A stretch of DNA of 32,989 nt from Prevotella sp. (GTDB taxonomy: Bacteria > Bacteroidota > Bacteroidia > Bacteroidales > Bacteroidaceae), in the NCBI GenBank assembly GCA_017561825.1, contig JAFZBK010000030.1, forward strand, positions 1 through 32,989, read 5' to 3'. Position numbers and translations under genes: made by a program. The notes beneath the pieces are model-generated. The model was given only the letters and a program-made list of their open reading frames with translations. It had not been told where the DNA came from and searched no databases. Of the stretch, positions 2,632 through 24,800 are shown piece by piece; position 1 is the stretch's first letter; each line of letters begins with the position of its first letter.

Positions 2632-3342
2632 ATGGTAAAAGGTATCATCTTTGATTACGGTGGCACGCTTGATACGCGGGGTAACCACTGGGGAAAGGTG
2701 CTGTGGCACGCATACGAGCGTCAGCAGGTTCCTGTCACGGAAGAACAGTTCCGTGAGGCATACGTCTATGCGGAACGTACGTTAGGCAGGAACCCCATCA
2801 TCCTGCCTACCTATACCTTTAAGAAACTCCTGGACGTGAAGCTTCGTTTGGAGATGGAATACTTGTTCACGAAAGGTTATCTGACCTTCGACAAGAACAC
2901 CTATACCAAGGTGGAACTGGCGTTGTTGGATGACCTCTACGGACAGGTACGACAAACAGTGGGATACAGTCGTGAGATCCTCATGCAACTGCATGAACGC
3001 TACCCGATGGTGTTGGTCAGCAATTTCTATGGGAACATCGAGGTGGTGTTGCAGGAGTTCCATCTGGAGGGCTTGTTCCAGAAGATCATCGAGTCGGCAG
3101 TTGTAGGCATCCGTAAGCCTGACCCCCAGATCTTCCAACTGGGTGTTGACGCGTTAGGACTTGCTCCTGAAGAGGTGATGGTGGTTGGCGATAGTATGAC
3201 GAAAGATATCATACCGGCAAAGAATATCGGTTGTATGACTGCTTGGTATAAAGGAGAAGGATGGACGGATAAACAAGAGGATGAGTCTATACCCGATTTG
3301 GTCATCACCGACCTCCAACATCTGCTCACCTCTCATCTCTAA
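2632..3342 (+). CDS. HAD-superfamily hydrolase
   Basis: Cytosolic protein of 236 residues with the haloacid-dehalogenase fold and an alpha-helical C1-type cap at about residues 20-105. Visible motifs are motif I FDYGGTLD (nucleophile Asp8), motif II around Ser130 (VLVSNFYGN), motif III Lys162 (GIRKPDP) and motif IV GDS...D (Asp187, Asp192). Motif I is odd: the second aspartate expected in phosphatases (DxD) is Gly10. In this superfamily that position is the general acid/base, and dehalogenases also lack the Asp, so the reaction cannot be named. It starts 17 nt after the DUF5686 gene. Its last residues (TSHL) and stop codon are encoded by the first units of a CTCATCT heptamer repeat. The fold is secure; the substrate is unknown. 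Confidence 0.85.
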   Translation: MVKGIIFDYGGTLDTRGNHWGKVLWHAYERQQVPVTEEQFREAYVYAERTLGRNPIILPTYTFKKLLDVKLRLEMEYLFTKGYLTFDKNTYTKVELALLDDLYGQVRQTVGYSREILMQLHERYPMVLVSNFYGNIEVVLQEFHLEGLFQKIIESAVVGIRKPDPQIFQLGVDALGLAPEEVMVVGDSMTKDIIPAKNIGCMTAWYKGEGWTDKQEDESIPDLVITDLQHLLTSHL

Positions 3343-3394
3343 TCTTTCATCTTTCATCTTTCATCTCTCATCTCTCATCTCTCATCTCTAATCC
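3325..3394 (+). repeat. Heptamer tandem repeat, 10 units (CTCATCT type)
   Basis: Ten contiguous 7-bp units: CTCACCT, CTCATCT, CTAATCT, three TTCATCT, three CTCATCT and CTAATCC. The tract begins inside the HAD gene. Its third unit, CTAATCT, supplies the TAA stop, so the C-terminus of the protein is made of repeat sequence. A change in copy number of the first units would shift the frame of the last residues. Confidence 0.95.
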
Positions 3395-3420
3395 TCTCAC
3401 TTTTACCACTTTATACAAAC

Positions 3421-18802: not shown

Positions 18803-20188
18803 TCATCTCAGAATGACCTTCTTACCATTCACTATATAGACGCCCTTGGCTGTAGGTTTACTGCTTATCTTCCTTCCATCAAGCATGTAGTACTCCTCAC
18901 TTGTAACTTGTGACTTATCTCTTGAAACTTGTTCTATGCCCGTGCCTTCAATAGCTACGATGCTACCGAATTCGCTCCAAGGCTTTGTTGAACGATATAC
19001 CTCTATGGCAGAGGCTGGCACGTGCAGGGTGGCATTTGTTATATATCCCCCCCAAATACTATTAAATCTATCTCTATCTTGTCCGTAAATTGAAGGTAGT
19101 TTCTCACGATAGATATAAACATCCTTCACGTTTTCGCAATTCTCAAAGGCAGCCTGCTCTATCCACATTGTGTTATTGGGGATAATGATGGTCTGTATGT
19201 TAGAACACCCCTTAAAAGCAAAAGGTCCAATATGGGTCACATTTTCTGGTATTTCCAAATCGACCAGACCCGTACAATCCTTGAATGTACAATAGGGAAT
19301 GCTTCCGAAAGGCCATGACAAGATGCTGGTCAATTGTCCGCACCCCATATAAAGATACTGCCCTATTCTTGTAACACTCGATGGGATATTAAATGAGGTG
19401 AGACCACTACCGGAAAAGGCCTTGTCGTCTATTTCTGTTACACTGTTGGGAATGTCCAGACGGGTAAGCGATTCACAGTTCAAAAAGGCTTCCTTTCCGA
19501 TGTAACGGATGCCATTAGGAAGGGTTATCTCGGAAAGCTTAAGACAGGAGTCAAAACAGCCTTTGGGCACACTTGTTATATTGTCAGAAAGACGGACCGA
19601 AACAAGGTTGGTGCAGCCTTTGAAAGCCCATTCCCACAGAGTGCCCACATGGTGAGGAATAACGATGGATGCAAGCGATGTACAATCCAAAAAGGCTTGA
19701 GATTCTATTTCTAAAAGATCCTCGGGTAGCGTAATCGATGATAATGAAGTGCATTGAGAAAAAGCTGCTTTCGTAATATTTCTTAGATGACTTGGCAGAT
19801 GTACATCTGTCAGTTGGGAGCAGAAAGCGCACATGCCCTCGGGCAACTTCTCCATATGATCAGGCAATACCAGCTTACGAAGACTAACACATCCCCAGAA
19901 AGCATTATCTGCAATCTTCGTTACGCTATAGGGAATCGTCAACGATTGGATGTTCATGCAGTCGCGGAAGGCATCTCCATCAATCTCCTTCACCGTATAT
20001 TCGTTTCCGTTATATGTAATAGTTGATGGTAGGTTGATATCACCTTGATAGTTGACCTCACCCTTTGTCACAATAGCTGCTCTCTCCACCGGATTAATAT
20101 TATAGTAAATGCCATTGATCTTAGCATCATACGCATTGGCGGTAATAGAAACCAGCAGAAATACAAACGTAAATAGACTATTCTTCAT
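18803..20188 (-). CDS. BspA-like leucine-rich repeat surface protein
   Basis: Secreted 461-residue protein with a signal peptide (LFTFVFLLVSITANA). From about residue 60 to 385 it carries roughly thirteen BspA/TpLRR-type repeats (LRR_5) of about 23 residues with the pattern I-x-x-x-A-F-x-x-C-x-x-L-x-x-I-x-I-P. Such proteins in oral and gut Bacteroidales are often surface adhesins; the ligand here is unknown. The C-terminus (YYMLDGRKISS to GVYIVNGKKVILR) resembles the sorting-type tails found on many secreted Bacteroidales proteins, possibly for type IX secretion. Between repeats and tail, EQVSRDKSQVTSE is encoded by five ACTTGTA-like heptamers. It is monocistronic, with its own promoter and terminator. 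Confidence 0.88.
   Translation of the reverse strand: MKNSLFTFVFLLVSITANAYDAKINGIYYNINPVERAAIVTKGEVNYQGDINLPSTITYNGNEYTVKEIDGDAFRDCMNIQSLTIPYSVTKIADNAFWGCVSLRKLVLPDHMEKLPEGMCAFCSQLTDVHLPSHLRNITKAAFSQCTSLSSITLPEDLLEIESQAFLDCTSLASIVIPHHVGTLWEWAFKGCTNLVSVRLSDNITSVPKGCFDSCLKLSEITLPNGIRYIGKEAFLNCESLTRLDIPNSVTEIDDKAFSGSGLTSFNIPSSVTRIGQYLYMGCGQLTSILSWPFGSIPYCTFKDCTGLVDLEIPENVTHIGPFAFKGCSNIQTIIIPNNTMWIEQAAFENCENVKDVYIYREKLPSIYGQDRDRFNSIWGGYITNATLHVPASAIEVYRSTKPWSEFGSIVAIEGTGIEQVSRDKSQVTSEEYYMLDGRKISSKPTAKGVYIVNGKKVILR
18899..18933 (-). repeat. Heptamer repeat (ACTTGTA type) in the BspA-like gene
   Basis: Five 7-bp units read on the + strand: ACTTGTA, ACTTGTG, ACTTATC, TCTTGAA, ACTTGTT. They encode the linker between the leucine-rich repeats and the C-terminal tail. 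This unit differs from the CTCATCT family but has the same period. Confidence 0.75.
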
Positions 20189-20296
20189 GATTCTAATTAT
20201 TTGTTACTACTACAATAATGACGGGCATGCATCCTAAACACGTAGAGAGTTCTTTTAACTTTAAACTAAATTAACGAATAATGCATGTTCCGTTTG

Positions 20297-20327
20297 CAAA
20301 TATACATCTTTAATCTGAAACATCAAA
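20297..20327 (-). promoter_or_regulatory. Promoter of the BspA-like gene
   Basis: On the - strand TTTG (complement of 20324-20327), 19 bp, then TATATTTG (complement of 20297-20304) is a canonical Bacteroidetes promoter. It predicts a leader of about 100 nt before the ATG at 20188. No clear riboswitch-like fold was recognised in the leader. Confidence 0.75.
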
Positions 20328-20372
20328 GGAAATACATGAAATCGCGAGAATCTTAGATATACAAAATGGCAC

Positions 20373-20479
20373 AACATACACGATTATCGTTAGAAACTCC
20401 TTTGAATAAAGGGGAAGTGGCCATTTTTAACATACACTCAAGATACACCAACATACACTATACGGGCACCAACATACAC
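20373..20479. repeat. Left AACATACAC repeat family
   Basis: AACATACAC occurs at 20373, 20429, 20450 and 20471. The last three form tandem 21-bp units sharing a second half of the type GATACACC. The motif is the exact reverse complement of GTGTATGTT, which recurs on the far side of the region (20709-20826). Confidence 0.9.
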
Positions 20480-20514
20480 TCATGATACACGCGAGATTCA
20501 CAAACGAGTTATTG

Positions 20515-20600
20515 TCCCCAACATGGGAATAAAATGTTCCCAACGTGGGAATAAAACGTTCCCAACATGGGAATAAAATGTTCCCAACGTGGGAATATCG
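20515..20600. repeat. Palindromic 22-bp tandem repeat, 4 units
   Basis: Four units start at 20515, 20537, 20559 and 20581. Each has a palindrome TTCCCA-ACR-TGGGAA followed by TAAAAYG (shortened in the last). The variable base alternates A, G, A, G, and the linker alternates with it (ATG, then ACG), giving a 44-bp higher-order period. The first unit has one mismatch. Confidence 0.95.
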
Positions 20601-20607
20601 AGAAAGA

Positions 20608-20704
20608 AGCCTAGTTGCTATGAGAAAGTAGCCTAGTTAGAGGTGGTAATCAGCCTAGTTACTATGTGAAAGTGGCCTGGTTTCTATACGCAAGTAGCCT
20701 ACTT
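20608..20704. repeat. AGCCTAGTT repeat, 5 copies at exact 22-bp spacing
   Basis: AGCCTAGTT starts at 20608, 20630 and 20652; GGCCTGGTT at 20674; AGCCTACTT at 20696. Every step is 22 bp. The linkers are partly conserved (CTATGnGAAAGT). The series directly follows the TTCCCA palindromes with the same period. Confidence 0.92.
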
Positions 20705-20708
20705 AGCA

Positions 20709-20826
20709 GTGTATGTTGCGTGTATGTTATAGGGGCTATAGTGTATGTTGGTGTATGTTTAGTGTATGTTGTTTTATATAGGAAGCCCTTTGTTTATCGG
20801 ACTTTTCGGCATTTTGCGTGTATGTT
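20709..20826. repeat. Right GTGTATGTT repeat family
   Basis: GTGTATGTT starts at 20709, 20720, 20741, 20751, 20762 and 20818, giving steps of 11, 21, 10, 11 and 56 bp. It is inverted relative to the AACATACAC copies on the left. A small hairpin TATAG-GGG-CTATA (20728-20740) sits between the second and third copies. The last copy lies 12 bp from the stop of the permease gene. Confidence 0.9.
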
Positions 20827-20837
20827 GCGCAAGTTTT

Positions 20838-21551
20838 TTAGTAAACCCAACAGAAAATGCCAGCCACAATGAACAGTACGGCCACGAAACGGGTGAGCCA
20901 TAACTGGATAAGATGCATGCCGCGCTCGAATCGCTCCATCTTCTGGATGCCGTAGGCAAAGAGGTATGAGAGGAAGAGGACTGGCAGGGCGGCACCAATG
21001 GCAAAGGCTACGGGAATCAGATAAGCCACAGATGACTGTACCGCCATGGGGATGATCATGCCGAAATACACGATGCCGCTTTCAGGACAGAAGGCCAAGG
21101 CAAAGAGTACACCTAACCACAAACTCCCCCATGCGCCACTGAACCGTTGCTGATGATCCTTAGTGGAAGGCACATGGTCGTGATGATGCAGCAGATCGTT
21201 GTATAAAAGGTAGAGTCCGATAACGATCAGCAGCGGTGCTAACAACCGTTCTCCCCATACACTCAACTGATCTCCAATATGCAACACCTTCGCTCCTATC
21301 CGAATCAGAAATACCAAAAGGATACCGAGAAGGGAATAAGCAAGGGTGCGACCGAGAACAAAATACAAAAGATGAGTGATGAGAGATGAGAGATGAGAGT
21401 TGTCATTCTTCGTCGAACGACGAAGAATGAGGCTTATTGCAGCGATGTTGGCGGCAAGCGGACAGGGATGCATCACCACCAAGATGCCAAGGATGAAAGC
21501 AGTGAGTAGCGGGTACTGACTGTTCTCGAAGAACTGCTGAATGATCTCCAT
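20838..21551 (-). CDS. ArsG-like / TauE-DsbD-type membrane permease
   Basis: Integral membrane protein of about 237 residues with six predicted helices. Conserved family features include VMHPCPLAANIAAI in the first helix pair and LAFCPESGIVYFG in the second half, resembling the ArsG-type/cytochrome c biogenesis (DsbD-like) transporters. The substrate is unknown; no arsenic or redox partner gene is nearby. The frame opens at 21563 (MIHGMEII), but the -7 box lies at 21568-21575, so I prefer the second ATG at 21551; a leaderless start at 21563 is the alternative. The loop after helix 2 (about residues 46-59, STKNDNSHLSSLITH) is encoded by a perfect 13-bp inverted repeat plus four GATGAGA-type heptamers, an apparent insertion. 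Confidence 0.75.
   Translation of the reverse strand: MEIIQQFFENSQYPLLTAFILGILVVMHPCPLAANIAAISLILRRSTKNDNSHLSSLITHLLYFVLGRTLAYSLLGILLVFLIRIGAKVLHIGDQLSVWGERLLAPLLIVIGLYLLYNDLLHHHDHVPSTKDHQQRFSGAWGSLWLGVLFALAFCPESGIVYFGMIIPMAVQSSVAYLIPVAFAIGAALPVLFLSYLFAYGIQKMERFERGMHLIQLWLTRFVAVLFIVAGIFCWVY
21371..21398 (-). repeat. Heptamer repeat, GATGAGT + 3 x GATGAGA, in the permease gene
   Basis: Four contiguous 7-bp units. The sense strand reads TCTCATC repeats and encodes SHLSSLITH at the start of a membrane helix. It abuts the 28-bp palindrome at 21403-21430. Confidence 0.95.
21403..21430. repeat. Perfect 13-bp inverted repeat inside a coding region
   Basis: TCATTCTTCGTCG (21403-21415), AA, CGACGAAGAATGA (21418-21430): both arms match perfectly. 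It lies in the cytosolic-loop codons of the permease gene, so it is not acting as the gene's terminator. No T run follows. Confidence 0.95.
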
Positions 21552-21567
21552 ACCATGAATCATGGTG

Positions 21568-22226: not shown

Positions 22227-23606
22227 TCACCCCATATCCTTATCCAGCTGATTTTTCCAAAGATATTCGCGGGTTTCCTTTACAAGGATGCCACTGAGGA
22301 AGAGGAGGGAGAGGAGGTTTGGGATGGCCATGAGCGCATTCATACAGTCGGCCAGGTTCCACACCACGGTAAGGTTCATCACGGCACCGAAGAAAATGGC
22401 AAGGATATAGAGAACACGATAGATGTTCTTCGGTTGATACTTGGTCTTGTTCTCTTTCTTCTTCAGGTTCCCTAAGTATTCCACGGCGCGCTCACCATAG
22501 AGTTCCCAACCAAGGATGGTGGAGAAGGCGAAGGTGAGCAGACCGAAGGTGAGCAGGGGCGCACCAATATAGGGAATCTTACTGAATGCCAGCTTGGTGA
22601 GGGTTGCTCCGTTCTCGTAGGAGATATCGGGATAGGCAATGATACTGCTTACAATGACAAGACCGGTAAGGGCACAGATCACGACAGTATCCCAGAAGGT
22701 ACCGCTGGAAGAGACGAGTGCTTGACGCACTGGATTGCGCGTCTGGGCAGCAGAGGCCACGATGGGCGCACTACCCATACCCGACTCATTGGAGAACAGA
22801 CCGCGGGCGATACCATAGCGGGCAGCCATCATCACCGTTCCACCCACAAAGCCGCCACCTGCAGCCTGTGGAGAGAATGCCGATTCGCAGATCAGCTTCA
22901 GGGCCGGCCATACATACGTGCCGTTCATAAAGAGGATGACGATACAGCCAATGACATAGAAGAAGGCCATGAAGGGCACGAGCATGGTACAAACCCTTGC
23001 AATACTCTTGATGCCACCCAATACAACAGCACCTGTAAGCAACATAATCACAATACCAGTGATATAAGGAGAGATGTCATAAGTCTCGAAGGTAAGGGTG
23101 GCGATGGCGTTTGCCTGTACCGTATTACCGATGCCGAAGGAGGCAATAGCAGTGAAAATGGCAAAGAGGATAGCCATGCCTTTCCAACCGAGTCCTTTTT
23201 CCAGAGCATACATCGGACCGCCAAGCATTCTTCCTTCAGGTGTCTTCTCGCGATATTTCACGGCCAGCAAACCCTCAGCATATTTCGTGGAGATACCAAA
23301 CAGACCGGTAAGCCAGCACCATAATACAGCACCAGGACCGCCTAAGGCGACGGCAGTAGCCACACCCACGATATTTCCTGTTCCGATGGTGGCAGCCAAG
23401 GCCGTGGCCAAAGCACCGAACTGTGATACGTCACCTTTCGAACCTTTGTCTTTCCGAATACTCAGCTTGATGGCCGTCCACAGATAACGTTGCGGACAAC
23501 GCAGTCGGATGGTTAGGAAAATATGCGTTCCTAACAACAATATAATCATCGGCCAACCCCAGAGGAGAGATGAAAGATGAGAGAGGAGAGATGATAGATA
23601 TTCCAT
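22227..23606 (-). CDS. AGCS-family sodium:alanine (amino acid) symporter
   Basis: Integral membrane protein of about 459 residues with roughly eleven helices. Family signatures are visible: GALATALAATIGTGNIVGVATA, GGPMYALEKGLG, RGLFSNESGMGSAPIVASAA and STILGWELYGERA. It takes up alanine or glycine with Na+. ATGs occur at 23630 and 23606; I chose 23606 (MEYLSSLL) because homologues begin with an amphipathic helix of that kind. That helix (SSLLSHLSSLL) is encoded by five GAGAGAT-like heptamers, so the native N-terminus has been replaced or extended by repeat DNA. The four-helix-bundle gene ends just upstream and could be co-transcribed. Confidence 0.92.
   Translation of the reverse strand: MEYLSSLLSHLSSLLWGWPMIILLLGTHIFLTIRLRCPQRYLWTAIKLSIRKDKGSKGDVSQFGALATALAATIGTGNIVGVATAVALGGPGAVLWCWLTGLFGISTKYAEGLLAVKYREKTPEGRMLGGPMYALEKGLGWKGMAILFAIFTAIASFGIGNTVQANAIATLTFETYDISPYITGIVIMLLTGAVVLGGIKSIARVCTMLVPFMAFFYVIGCIVILFMNGTYVWPALKLICESAFSPQAAGGGFVGGTVMMAARYGIARGLFSNESGMGSAPIVASAAQTRNPVRQALVSSSGTFWDTVVICALTGLVIVSSIIAYPDISYENGATLTKLAFSKIPYIGAPLLTFGLLTFAFSTILGWELYGERAVEYLGNLKKKENKTKYQPKNIYRVLYILAIFFGAVMNLTVVWNLADCMNALMAIPNLLSLLFLSGILVKETREYLWKNQLDKDMG
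23565..23599 (-). repeat. Heptamer repeat in the N-terminus of the AGCS gene
   Basis: Five 7-bp units on the + strand: GAGAGAT, GAAAGAT, GAGAGAG, GAGAGAT, GATAGAT. The sense strand (ATCTCTC type) encodes YLSSLLSHLSSLL. It lies within 45 bp of the start codon, the place where a copy-number change would most affect expression. Confidence 0.93.
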
Positions 23607-24003: not shown

Positions 24004-24052
24004 CTCATCTCTCATCTTTCATCTTTCATCTCTCATCTCTCATCTCCCATCT
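24004..24052 (-). repeat. Heptamer tandem repeat, 7 units (CTCATCT type)
   Basis: Seven 7-bp units on the + strand: two CTCATCT, two TTCATCT, two CTCATCT and CCCATCT. For the leftward DUF4230 gene the purine-rich strand is sense, and the repeat itself supplies the TGA stop after MGDER. The unit set is nearly the same as the tract at 3325-3394. Confidence 0.95.
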
Positions 24053-24800
24053 CTCCATTCCTCACCCTCACTTTAACGTTATCAAATCCCATGGAACGCA
24101 TGAGTTGGTAGAACTGGCGGGACGCATTCTGTTCTGCACTGGCGATATTTTCGGAAGTCAGACAACGTTCCTTCATACGTTGGTAGGCCCGTTTATACAT
24201 CAACTCACGGTCACCATCAGTCCATTTACCCGATTCAAAGAACGATTGTGTGCGCGCCTCATCGATAAACCGTTCATCCAGAAGCTTGATGGGCGGGAGG
24301 GTGACAAGGATACTGTCCTTATCCTTCTTGATCCAATCGTCAGCCACCTCTTGCATATCAATACCCAACCGCAGCGTTCCGTAATAGATGCGGATAAGCT
24401 GGTCGTCTGAGAAGAAGCCGTTGCGAGTGGTGTCGATCATCTCTTCATCAGCAACCGACAGGAATTCCCACTGTCCGATATCCTTCATCGACTTGATCTG
24501 CGTGGGTGTGATGCCGATACGCTGGTCGATCTCGATGGAAGCAGAAGCATCGGTCATCTTATTGAAGAGGAAGTAGCCTACTCCCAAAACGATGAGAATC
24601 AGGGCAAGAATACCGATGACGGTCCACTTACTGGCTTTACCTAACATCTGGAAGAAGGCGGTGAGCGCATTCTCAATACCCTTCGTGATCTCCTCTTGGG
24701 TGAGCTCAGACGACTGCTGTGTCTGCTGCTTGGTCTTCTTGGTGTTCTTCTTGGTCACCTTGGAGACTTTCTTTGGCGTGTTGGATTCCTTTGTGGTCAT
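24033..24800 (-). CDS. DUF4230 protein with N-terminal membrane anchor
   Basis: Membrane-anchored protein of 255 residues and unknown function. A Lys/Thr/Gln-rich cytosolic tail (residues 1-35) precedes one membrane helix (about 60-83, WTVIGILALILIVLGVGYFLF). A DUF4230 domain then faces the periplasm, with a signature like LPPIKLLDERFIDEARTQSFFESG and a C-terminal helix (AEQNASRQFYQLMRSMGFDNV). Its ATG overlaps the TGA of the upstream DUF4230 gene by four bases (ATGA), so translation is likely coupled and the products may act together. The C-terminus ends in heptamer repeat sequence (NGEMGDER), so the original end may have been lost. Confidence 0.8.
   Translation of the reverse strand: MTTKESNTPKKVSKVTKKNTKKTKQQTQQSSELTQEEITKGIENALTAFFQMLGKASKWTVIGILALILIVLGVGYFLFNKMTDASASIEIDQRIGITPTQIKSMKDIGQWEFLSVADEEMIDTTRNGFFSDDQLIRIYYGTLRLGIDMQEVADDWIKKDKDSILVTLPPIKLLDERFIDEARTQSFFESGKWTDGDRELMYKRAYQRMKERCLTSENIASAEQNASRQFYQLMRSMGFDNVKVRVRNGEMGDER

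Follow-up and report, generated by a model that had tools for sequence, protein, structure and literature searches.

The alpha protein of P4 is a primase-helicase with iterons at ori and crr. The origins of phage-inducible chromosomal islands (PICIs) consist of two iteron sets flanking an AT-rich region. In the Staphylococcus aureus pathogenicity islands (SaPIs) the Rep helicases recognise the iterons via their C-terminal domain; for both statements we rely on the accessible portions of the sources (PMC6092414, PMC7581432). The nearest described repeat, going by the accessible part of its description, is the BrickBuilt miniature inverted-repeat transposable element (MITE) of Porphyromonas gingivalis, which is present in multiple intergenic copies, is built of a leader, a 23-nt minisatellite core and a tail, and varies in copy number between strains. 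It has terminal repeats of 12 bp that match ISPg elements of the IS5 family (PMC4596501). Here we analysed a stretch of 32,989 nt from Prevotella sp. (assembly GCA_017561825.1, contig JAFZBK010000030.1, positions 1 to 32,989), in the following called the window, which at positions 20373-20826 carries a repeat core framed by two iteron arms that mirror each other. As judged from sequence comparisons, this element is probably an iteron (origin-like) region that belongs with a BT4734-type VapE initiator helicase and is present here as an orphan copy. The layout of the arms is fixed, arrays of the same kind lie next to VapE genes, the iteron type covaries with the VapE C-terminus and the copy in the window has no VapE gene beside it. 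Together these observations make an orphan iteron region the most likely identity of the element, and we regard this identity as well supported.

The element lies in a gap of 649 bp (20189-20837) between a gene for a BspA-type leucine-rich repeat protein (18803-20188, minus strand, PF13306) and an ArsG-family permease gene (20838-21563, minus strand, NCBIfam NF040495). The left arm starts with an exact outer iteron AACATACAC (20373-20381, plus strand), whose offset of 55-56 bp from the inner group is kept in relatives. The gap between them (20382-20428) contains TTTGAATAAAGGGG, for which the consensus across 49 arms is ATAAATAAAGGG, and has the highest AT content within the arm (0.66). The left inner iterons (20429-20490, plus strand) have offsets of 0, 11, 21, 42 and 53 bp. 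They are exact at 20429, 20450 and 20471 and degenerate at 20440 (AAGATACAC) and 20482 (ATGATACAC). The right arm mirrors the left one on the minus strand: exact copies of GTGTATGTT at 20709, 20720, 20741, 20751 and 20762 form the inner group (20709-20770), followed by a gap with CCTTTGTTTATC (20771-20817) and an exact outer GTGTATGTT (20818-20826). The latter lies just outside the permease gene, close to its stop codon (20838-20840). Overall 10 of the 12 sites are exact, both degenerate sites belong to the left arm, and in either flank the sites are found at 0, 56, 67, 77, 98 and 109 bp from the outermost one. The core of 218 bp between the arms has two modules with a period of 22 bp. The first comprises four 15-bp palindromes (T/C)CCCA-ACR-TGGGAA (20515-20595) which begin at 20515, 20537, 20559 and 20581, with R alternating as A, G, A, G and one mismatch in the first unit. 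The second comprises five units of the AGCCTAGTT type (20608-20704, plus strand), of which those at 20608, 20630 and 20652 are exact and those at 20674 and 20696 degenerate.

An earlier note on this sequence had described four repeat families in the gap, and all of them are present at the places it gave, including the palindromes with their 22-bp period and alternating A and G. It had counted five copies of AGCCTAGTT; five units do recur every 22 bp, although just three of them are exact. The first and last families, which it had called reverse complements, are indeed inverted, while the mirrored offsets of both flanks had escaped it. Its suggestion that the repeats face one side of the DNA holds for the arms, where the steps of 10, 11 and 21 bp are consistent with 10.5-bp helical phasing, and applies loosely to the 22-bp arrays, which drift by about 1 bp per unit. 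It was also right that this is not a CRISPR, as the spacers are of fixed length and common to the copies. The inverted-array score of the gap was 50; 500 dinucleotide shuffles averaged 13.2 and reached 36 at most, and the best score off the element was 27 (214 windows). The commonest 9-mer of the gap occurred 6 times and at most 3 times in the shuffles.

We then looked at the copies of the element. The host genome (2.98 Mb, 69 contigs, 88% complete) gave 80 matches to the 481-bp region. A similar composite, which the earlier note had proposed to search for in relatives, was found in related Prevotella genomes, and these dispersed copies agree with its idea of a complex mobile repeat. We read 31 element loci closely, some of them partial: 11 in the host, nine in Prevotella RUG047, ten in RGIG9694 and one in Tb.RUG.501, whose genome is 99% complete. 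RUG047 and Tb.RUG.501 were placed in the host genus by kinship assignment. The locus counts are lower bounds, with partial pieces on host contigs C6 and C14 and on RUG047 contig C24 falling outside the 31, and L179 and L191 among the 31 are orthologues. Arms could be scored at 27 of the 31 loci, 22 with two arms and five with one scorable arm, which gives 49 arms in total. Across these arms the spacing is fixed between copies and the intervening sequence is free: the iteron sites carry 1.53-1.97 bits per base compared to a mean of 0.93 for the other positions. The core is variable, ranging from 108 to 270 bp in 26 copies with modules that differ in order, number and orientation. Core modules also occur without arms elsewhere in the host, where AGCCTAGTT units were found outside arms, and the palindrome module occurs alone or in other cores elsewhere in the genus. 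Matches were obtained in 30 of 149 other genomes of the genus (31 of 150 including the host) and consist mostly of the palindrome array.

The placement of the element is intergenic. At 27 of the 31 loci an open reading frame (ORF) was called on both sides, and the single ORF overlap (L192) was taken to be spurious. Four pairs of loci between RUG047 and RGIG9694 match in both flanks (L176/L186, L180/L193, L181/L190 and L184/L192). Other loci match in one flank only, namely L179 with L191, L111 with L180 and L193, and L195 with L185. These one-flank matches, together with a locus on the xylA side, suggest that rearrangement has taken place at the elements. At the argC site the host has arms and the other three genomes have none. 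At the glgA site arms are present in RUG047 alone, within an insert of ~1 kb that carries other repeats, and are absent from the host, RGIG9694 and Tb.RUG.501.

Four of the 31 element loci are located at genes for BT4734-type VapE helicases, two in the host and one each in RUG047 and RGIG9694. The gene product has 705-734 aa with BT4734-like_N, VapE-like and DUF3874 domains. The closest relative of known structure is 7pds ('Similar to D. nodosus vapE'; profile E 5e-15 over residues 405-659), which we take to be a staphylococcal island initiator. In RUG047 and RGIG9694 the first exact site is found 85 bp from the start of the VapE gene, beside priA (PriA was identified on the copy in the host). 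The host has two contig ends at which the array continues into the beginning of the same VapE gene, reaching its first codons, and two other contig ends that carry the last 197 VapE codons, one beside priA and one beside tsf. The two 3' copies are 95.3% identical over 594 bp and their homology stops at the VapE stop codon. As the tsf loci of RUG047, RGIG9694 and Tb.RUG.501 have no VapE, this indicates that the VapE gene was copied within the host.

Arrays upstream of VapE are not restricted to these four loci. Homologues of BT4734/VapE were detected in 82 of 150 genomes of the genus (E 1e-60), often several per genome. We scored the 900 bp upstream of 31 of these homologues for a repeated 7-mer followed by its repeated reverse complement, with a threshold of 33. 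This threshold was reached by 23 of the 31 VapE upstream regions and by none of the 104 upstream regions of other genes. The set of 31 excludes L234, L238 and L242 (too little upstream sequence) and L223 (436 bp, score 12), and re-fetched duplicates were skipped. The commonest step between sites was 11 bp (50 of 136 spacings), followed by 22, 8, 21 and 10 bp, and in most regions there is an outer site or pair ~54-68 bp further out. The repeated words go by VapE clade: AACATAC, CTACAT, CTTCAC, CTGACA, CTCTAC, AACTCTA and GCCATCA. One VapE of a further species shares 83% identity overall and 73% in the C-terminus, and its upstream region contains AACATACAC and GTGTATGTT in two exact copies each, interspersed with near copies; the CTACAT-type VapE of the host shows 48% C-terminal identity.

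To relate the iteron type to the protein we used iteron labels for 22 of 24 aligned VapE proteins, with the words grouped by eye (the labels of L226, L231 and L241 were themselves assigned by eye) and leaving out L236 and L252, which have no clear iteron. For residues 631-705 the identity was 0.79 for pairs with the same iteron and 0.42 for pairs with different iterons, while for the helicase region it went from 0.88 to 0.77. Holding the rest of the protein constant, the partial correlation was 0.70 for the C-terminus (last 75 residues), with a p-value of 0.0005, the floor for 2000 permutations. In a five-sequence AlphaFold model of VapE the mean predicted local distance difference test score (pLDDT) was 51.8, so the model is mostly unreliable; the C-terminal 75 residues scored highest, with 75-90 by block. 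Their modelled order is helix-strand-helix-helix-strand-strand, which we read as a predicted winged helix. A single-sequence model had a mean pLDDT of 34.8 and was set aside.

For most copies there is no such gene nearby. At 27 of the 31 loci, the one in the window included, we found no VapE among the two nearest ORFs per side; at L110 and L113 one side is a contig end and cannot be judged. The genomes with a cognate VapE, i.e. the host, RUG047 and RGIG9694, have at least 11, at least nine and at least ten element loci, respectively. In Tb.RUG.501 there is a single locus, and the closest VapE of this genome shows 66% identity overall and 35% in the C-terminus. TTTG-N20-TACCTTTG is a promoter consensus. 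A perfect match to it was observed in four of the 49 arms, precisely the four beside VapE, where the outer iteron overlaps the -7 box (TGTGTACCTTTG). By this comparison the orphan arms appear to retain the iterons and to lose the promoter. An outward promoter was also considered as the cause of the spread and was rejected, since the promoter is present in the four VapE-side arms alone. Arrays of other iteron types, with no VapE within the ~3 kb read at each locus, occur in loci of the host (CTACTAA at L010, ACCTAAC at L026 and L030) and of other genomes (L039, L046 and L054), and the core of L046 contains TTCCCAACGTGGGAA-type palindromes.

One group of orphan arms has a distinct neighbour. In RGIG9694 and Tb.RUG.501 a RelA/SpoT gene starts 66 bp away from a b-type arm (L185 4235-4600 and L195 3905-4280), and the orphan array may be part of the regulatory region of this gene. 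The -7-like box TGTGTACCTTTG is kept in this arm and the full promoter is not, hence we make no claim that the arm drives the gene.

If the element is an orphan iteron region, the following mechanism can be proposed. The C-terminal domain of VapE (DUF3874) would most likely bind the iterons, in the simplest case with one hexamer per six-site arm. The helicase would then open the DNA between or beside the two iteron sets and start replication, as proposed for SaPI and PICI origins. VapE and its array would thus form a minimal mobile replicon amid housekeeping genes, and copies of the window type would be non-autonomous derivatives in which the iterons persist and the gene and the promoter are gone. 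We infer that a cognate VapE elsewhere in the genome probably aids the spread of the orphans or their upkeep by recombination. A possible role of the 22-bp core repeats is to position an architectural protein. The latter idea is based on an HU-HIG-like gene, found beyond the array on the side opposite to VapE at six of the 16 VapE loci (L249 1950-2339, L256, L257, L259, L262 and L266) and confirmed by Pfam in three of the six. More speculatively, and in our view rather doubtful as a whole, these elements could represent a recombinase-less class of minimal mobile replicons in Bacteroidota. VapE with a six-plus-six origin would be its autonomous form, the origin-only derivatives would be its MITEs, mobilised or copied in trans by the cognate VapE via replication itself, and iterons and orphans would be specific to each clade.

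The arrays would give most VapE homologues a readable clade-specific target, so that pairs of initiator and origin could be predicted from sequence. Puzzling intergenic repeats, among them ones that break contigs, would gain an explanation. If the orphans do fire or recombine in trans, this would be a new route of rearrangement for the chromosomes of gut and rumen Bacteroidota. Our literature search, which worked on full text with most subscription papers outside its scope, returned no link of Bacteroidota BT4734/VapE to iterons, to these repeats or to a DNA target.

Several observations weigh against an orphan VapE iteron region or limit how far the evidence reaches. Eight of the 31 VapE upstream regions stayed below the threshold; two of the sub-threshold cases (L244 and L250) lie beside truncated genes, and two (L226 and L231) show arrays by eye. 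Among the 23 that passed, L236 has no clean array and L215 passed via a stray extra word. With one mismatch allowed, six is the most frequent number of sites in the left arms only (8 of 23); in the right arms it is four (9 of 23). In scans of whole loci, four of 29 loci selected independently of VapE reached the threshold owing to unrelated repeats, and of 28 palindrome loci nine passed, five of them via palindromes alone; the score by itself is therefore not specific. Of 14 viral VapE loci four reached the threshold (L278, L281, L282 and L284), none with the layout of the window, and L274, the one locus at which the 5' side was read, has no array there. L278 passed through a GC-rich word, and in L272 and L273 the sequence starts at the gene so that the 5' side is not visible. 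In the covariation analysis residues 1-200 also tracked the iteron type (partial correlation 0.31, p-value 0.0005, again the permutation floor; the remaining protein was negative), which means that phylogeny is controlled in part only. Running the model through Foldseek produced nothing at E 0.001 or better (best match 0.1), hence the winged helix is unconfirmed by fold. The array of the second host VapE copy, at tsf, was assigned across contig ends by inference. We searched for a target-site duplication or a clean insertion unit and found none; the insert at glgA measures ~1 kb and contains other repeats. Finally, the arrays lie 5' of VapE, whereas PICI origins lie 3' of rep, and the core is just mildly AT-rich with 0.58, compared to 0.66 for the outer gap and 0.52 (0.518) for the window.

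The strongest competitor is a purely regulatory role, in which the arrays are autoregulatory sites of VapE and the orphans act as scattered operators or promoters through which VapE controls their neighbours, with no start of replication involved. The position 5' of VapE and the overlap of the outer iteron with the -7 box are what one would expect of an operator. The orientation of the neighbour genes fits as well, with 14 tandem, 10 divergent and three convergent arrangements at 27 loci, although orthologues are counted more than once here. This explanation is weakened by the confinement of the promoter to the VapE-side arms, since none of the 45 other arms keeps a perfect promoter although the iterons stay. 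Moreover the neighbour genes are mostly unrelated, and a mirror layout of six plus six sites would seem to exceed the needs of an operator. We therefore consider a role as operator alone unlikely.

An ordinary transposable element comes next. The arms would then be the ends of a BrickBuilt-like MITE mobilised by an unseen transposase gene, with the minisatellites inside. As in MITEs in general, the element has inverted terminal repeats, lacks coding capacity and is present in multiple intergenic copies; its 22-bp minisatellites, the presence of arms at argC in the host alone and the nesting of host copies with other repeat families agree with this too. Transposase ends would leave unexplained why arrays of the same layout, with a sequence specific to each clade, are found at VapE genes. 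The missing target-site duplication speaks against it as well, and a transposase origin was rejected after the two nearest ORFs per side of the 31 loci revealed no transposase-bearing element with these ends. BrickBuilt itself differs in that the accessible part of its description mentions neither iteron arms nor a link to VapE, and the Prevotella units measure 22 bp and end in AACATACAC iterons instead of the printed terminal inverted repeats (PMC4596501). The accessible part of PMC5771137 contains nothing on iterons. Taken together, an ordinary MITE seems quite improbable.

The earlier note had suggested a protein-binding array. This is supported in so far as the arms correspond to the iteron regions found with VapE helicases of the BT4734 type, a binder that the note did not see; for the nucleoid or segregation role that it considered no support turned up, with no test aimed at such a role made. 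The fixed phasing and the rearrangements suggested by the one-flank matches would suit an array for a host nucleoid, segregation or recombination protein. The presence of the element differs between close species, Tb.RUG.501 has a single copy and the iteron type tracks the VapE lineage, which makes a host protein very improbable. The structured RNA that the note also proposed is hardly credible despite the long inverted arms (62 nt, 81% complementary), as no Rfam family was found at the gathering score (two matches, both below), the conservation resides in direct-repeat sites at helical spacing and not along a stem, and no orphan arm retains the promoter.

Compared to the described origins, an orphan VapE iteron region resembles the PICI/SaPI type most closely. 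Two sets of short iterons around a central region beside an initiator-type helicase gene are common to both, and recognition would apparently reside in the C-terminal domain in both cases. Two iteron sets are present in the window (six plus six) and, by score, in 23 of the 31 VapE upstream regions. The Prevotella arrays differ in lying 5' of the gene and in being accompanied by no integrase, repressor or packaging genes. In the ORFs flanking 16 VapE loci, which were mostly read by eye, we recognised none of these and no interference genes either. Furthermore the Prevotella element is solitary in the chromosome, has many orphan copies and contains a core of 22-bp repeats. On account of the 5' position and the missing island context we would not file it as a PICI origin, though the layout is alike. 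P4 alpha shares the initiator of the primase-helicase type and the iteron repeats, and differs in that no satellite-phage genes were seen among the listed neighbours of the VapE genes.

We also searched other records for related sequences. Plasmid and phage records gave no DNA match, and viral contigs gave no exact match for the palindrome array. In one stretch that is represented twice in IMG/VR (L213 1238-1365 and L214 5168-5295), AACATACAC occurs at steps of 11, 10 and 11 bp in a phage replication module. An AT-rich TATAAATAAGG stretch and inverted copies of GTGTATGT are nearby, beside a CHC2/toprim primase-helicase gene, and the part that was read shows no VapE gene; the occurrence of AACATACAC there may be convergence. 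A second spacing pattern, present on two contigs, was rejected as apparently unrelated. In the viral VapE loci from IMG/VR, TGTTACC-type words were observed in both orientations 3' of the VapE match (L281 5062-5326, L282 4760-5028 and L284 2122-2289); these may be phage iterons situated on the opposite side of the VapE gene.

Repetitive extragenic palindromic (REP) sequences and bacterial interspersed mosaic elements with REP-associated tyrosine transposases (RAYTs) are similar to the element in having short palindromes in intergenic clusters. RAYT-like genes are present in the host and in RUG047 (L116 2215-3189, L174 and L175). The three loci of these genes (3.1-3.6 kb) contain neither these palindromes nor the iterons, and a REP/RAYT origin was rejected.

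Tandem arrays of exactly 22 bp (or 44 bp) with unrelated sequences recur in intergenic regions of Prevotella (L117 1079-1202, L119 1373-1499, L176-L184 and L186-L195), and 22 bp is the commonest tandem period, among those of at least 8 bp, in the element loci of the host, RUG047 and RGIG9694. Another multi-copy repeat, of the ATTTCTCCGCTAAACTC...GGCGGAG type, was found beside AGCCTAGTT arrays in the host loci L008, L010, L011, L020, L021 and L023. Within the window itself we observed microsatellites of 7 bp (CATCTCT / AGATGAG type) at 3319-3399, 21370-21399, 23561-23599 and 24004-24055.
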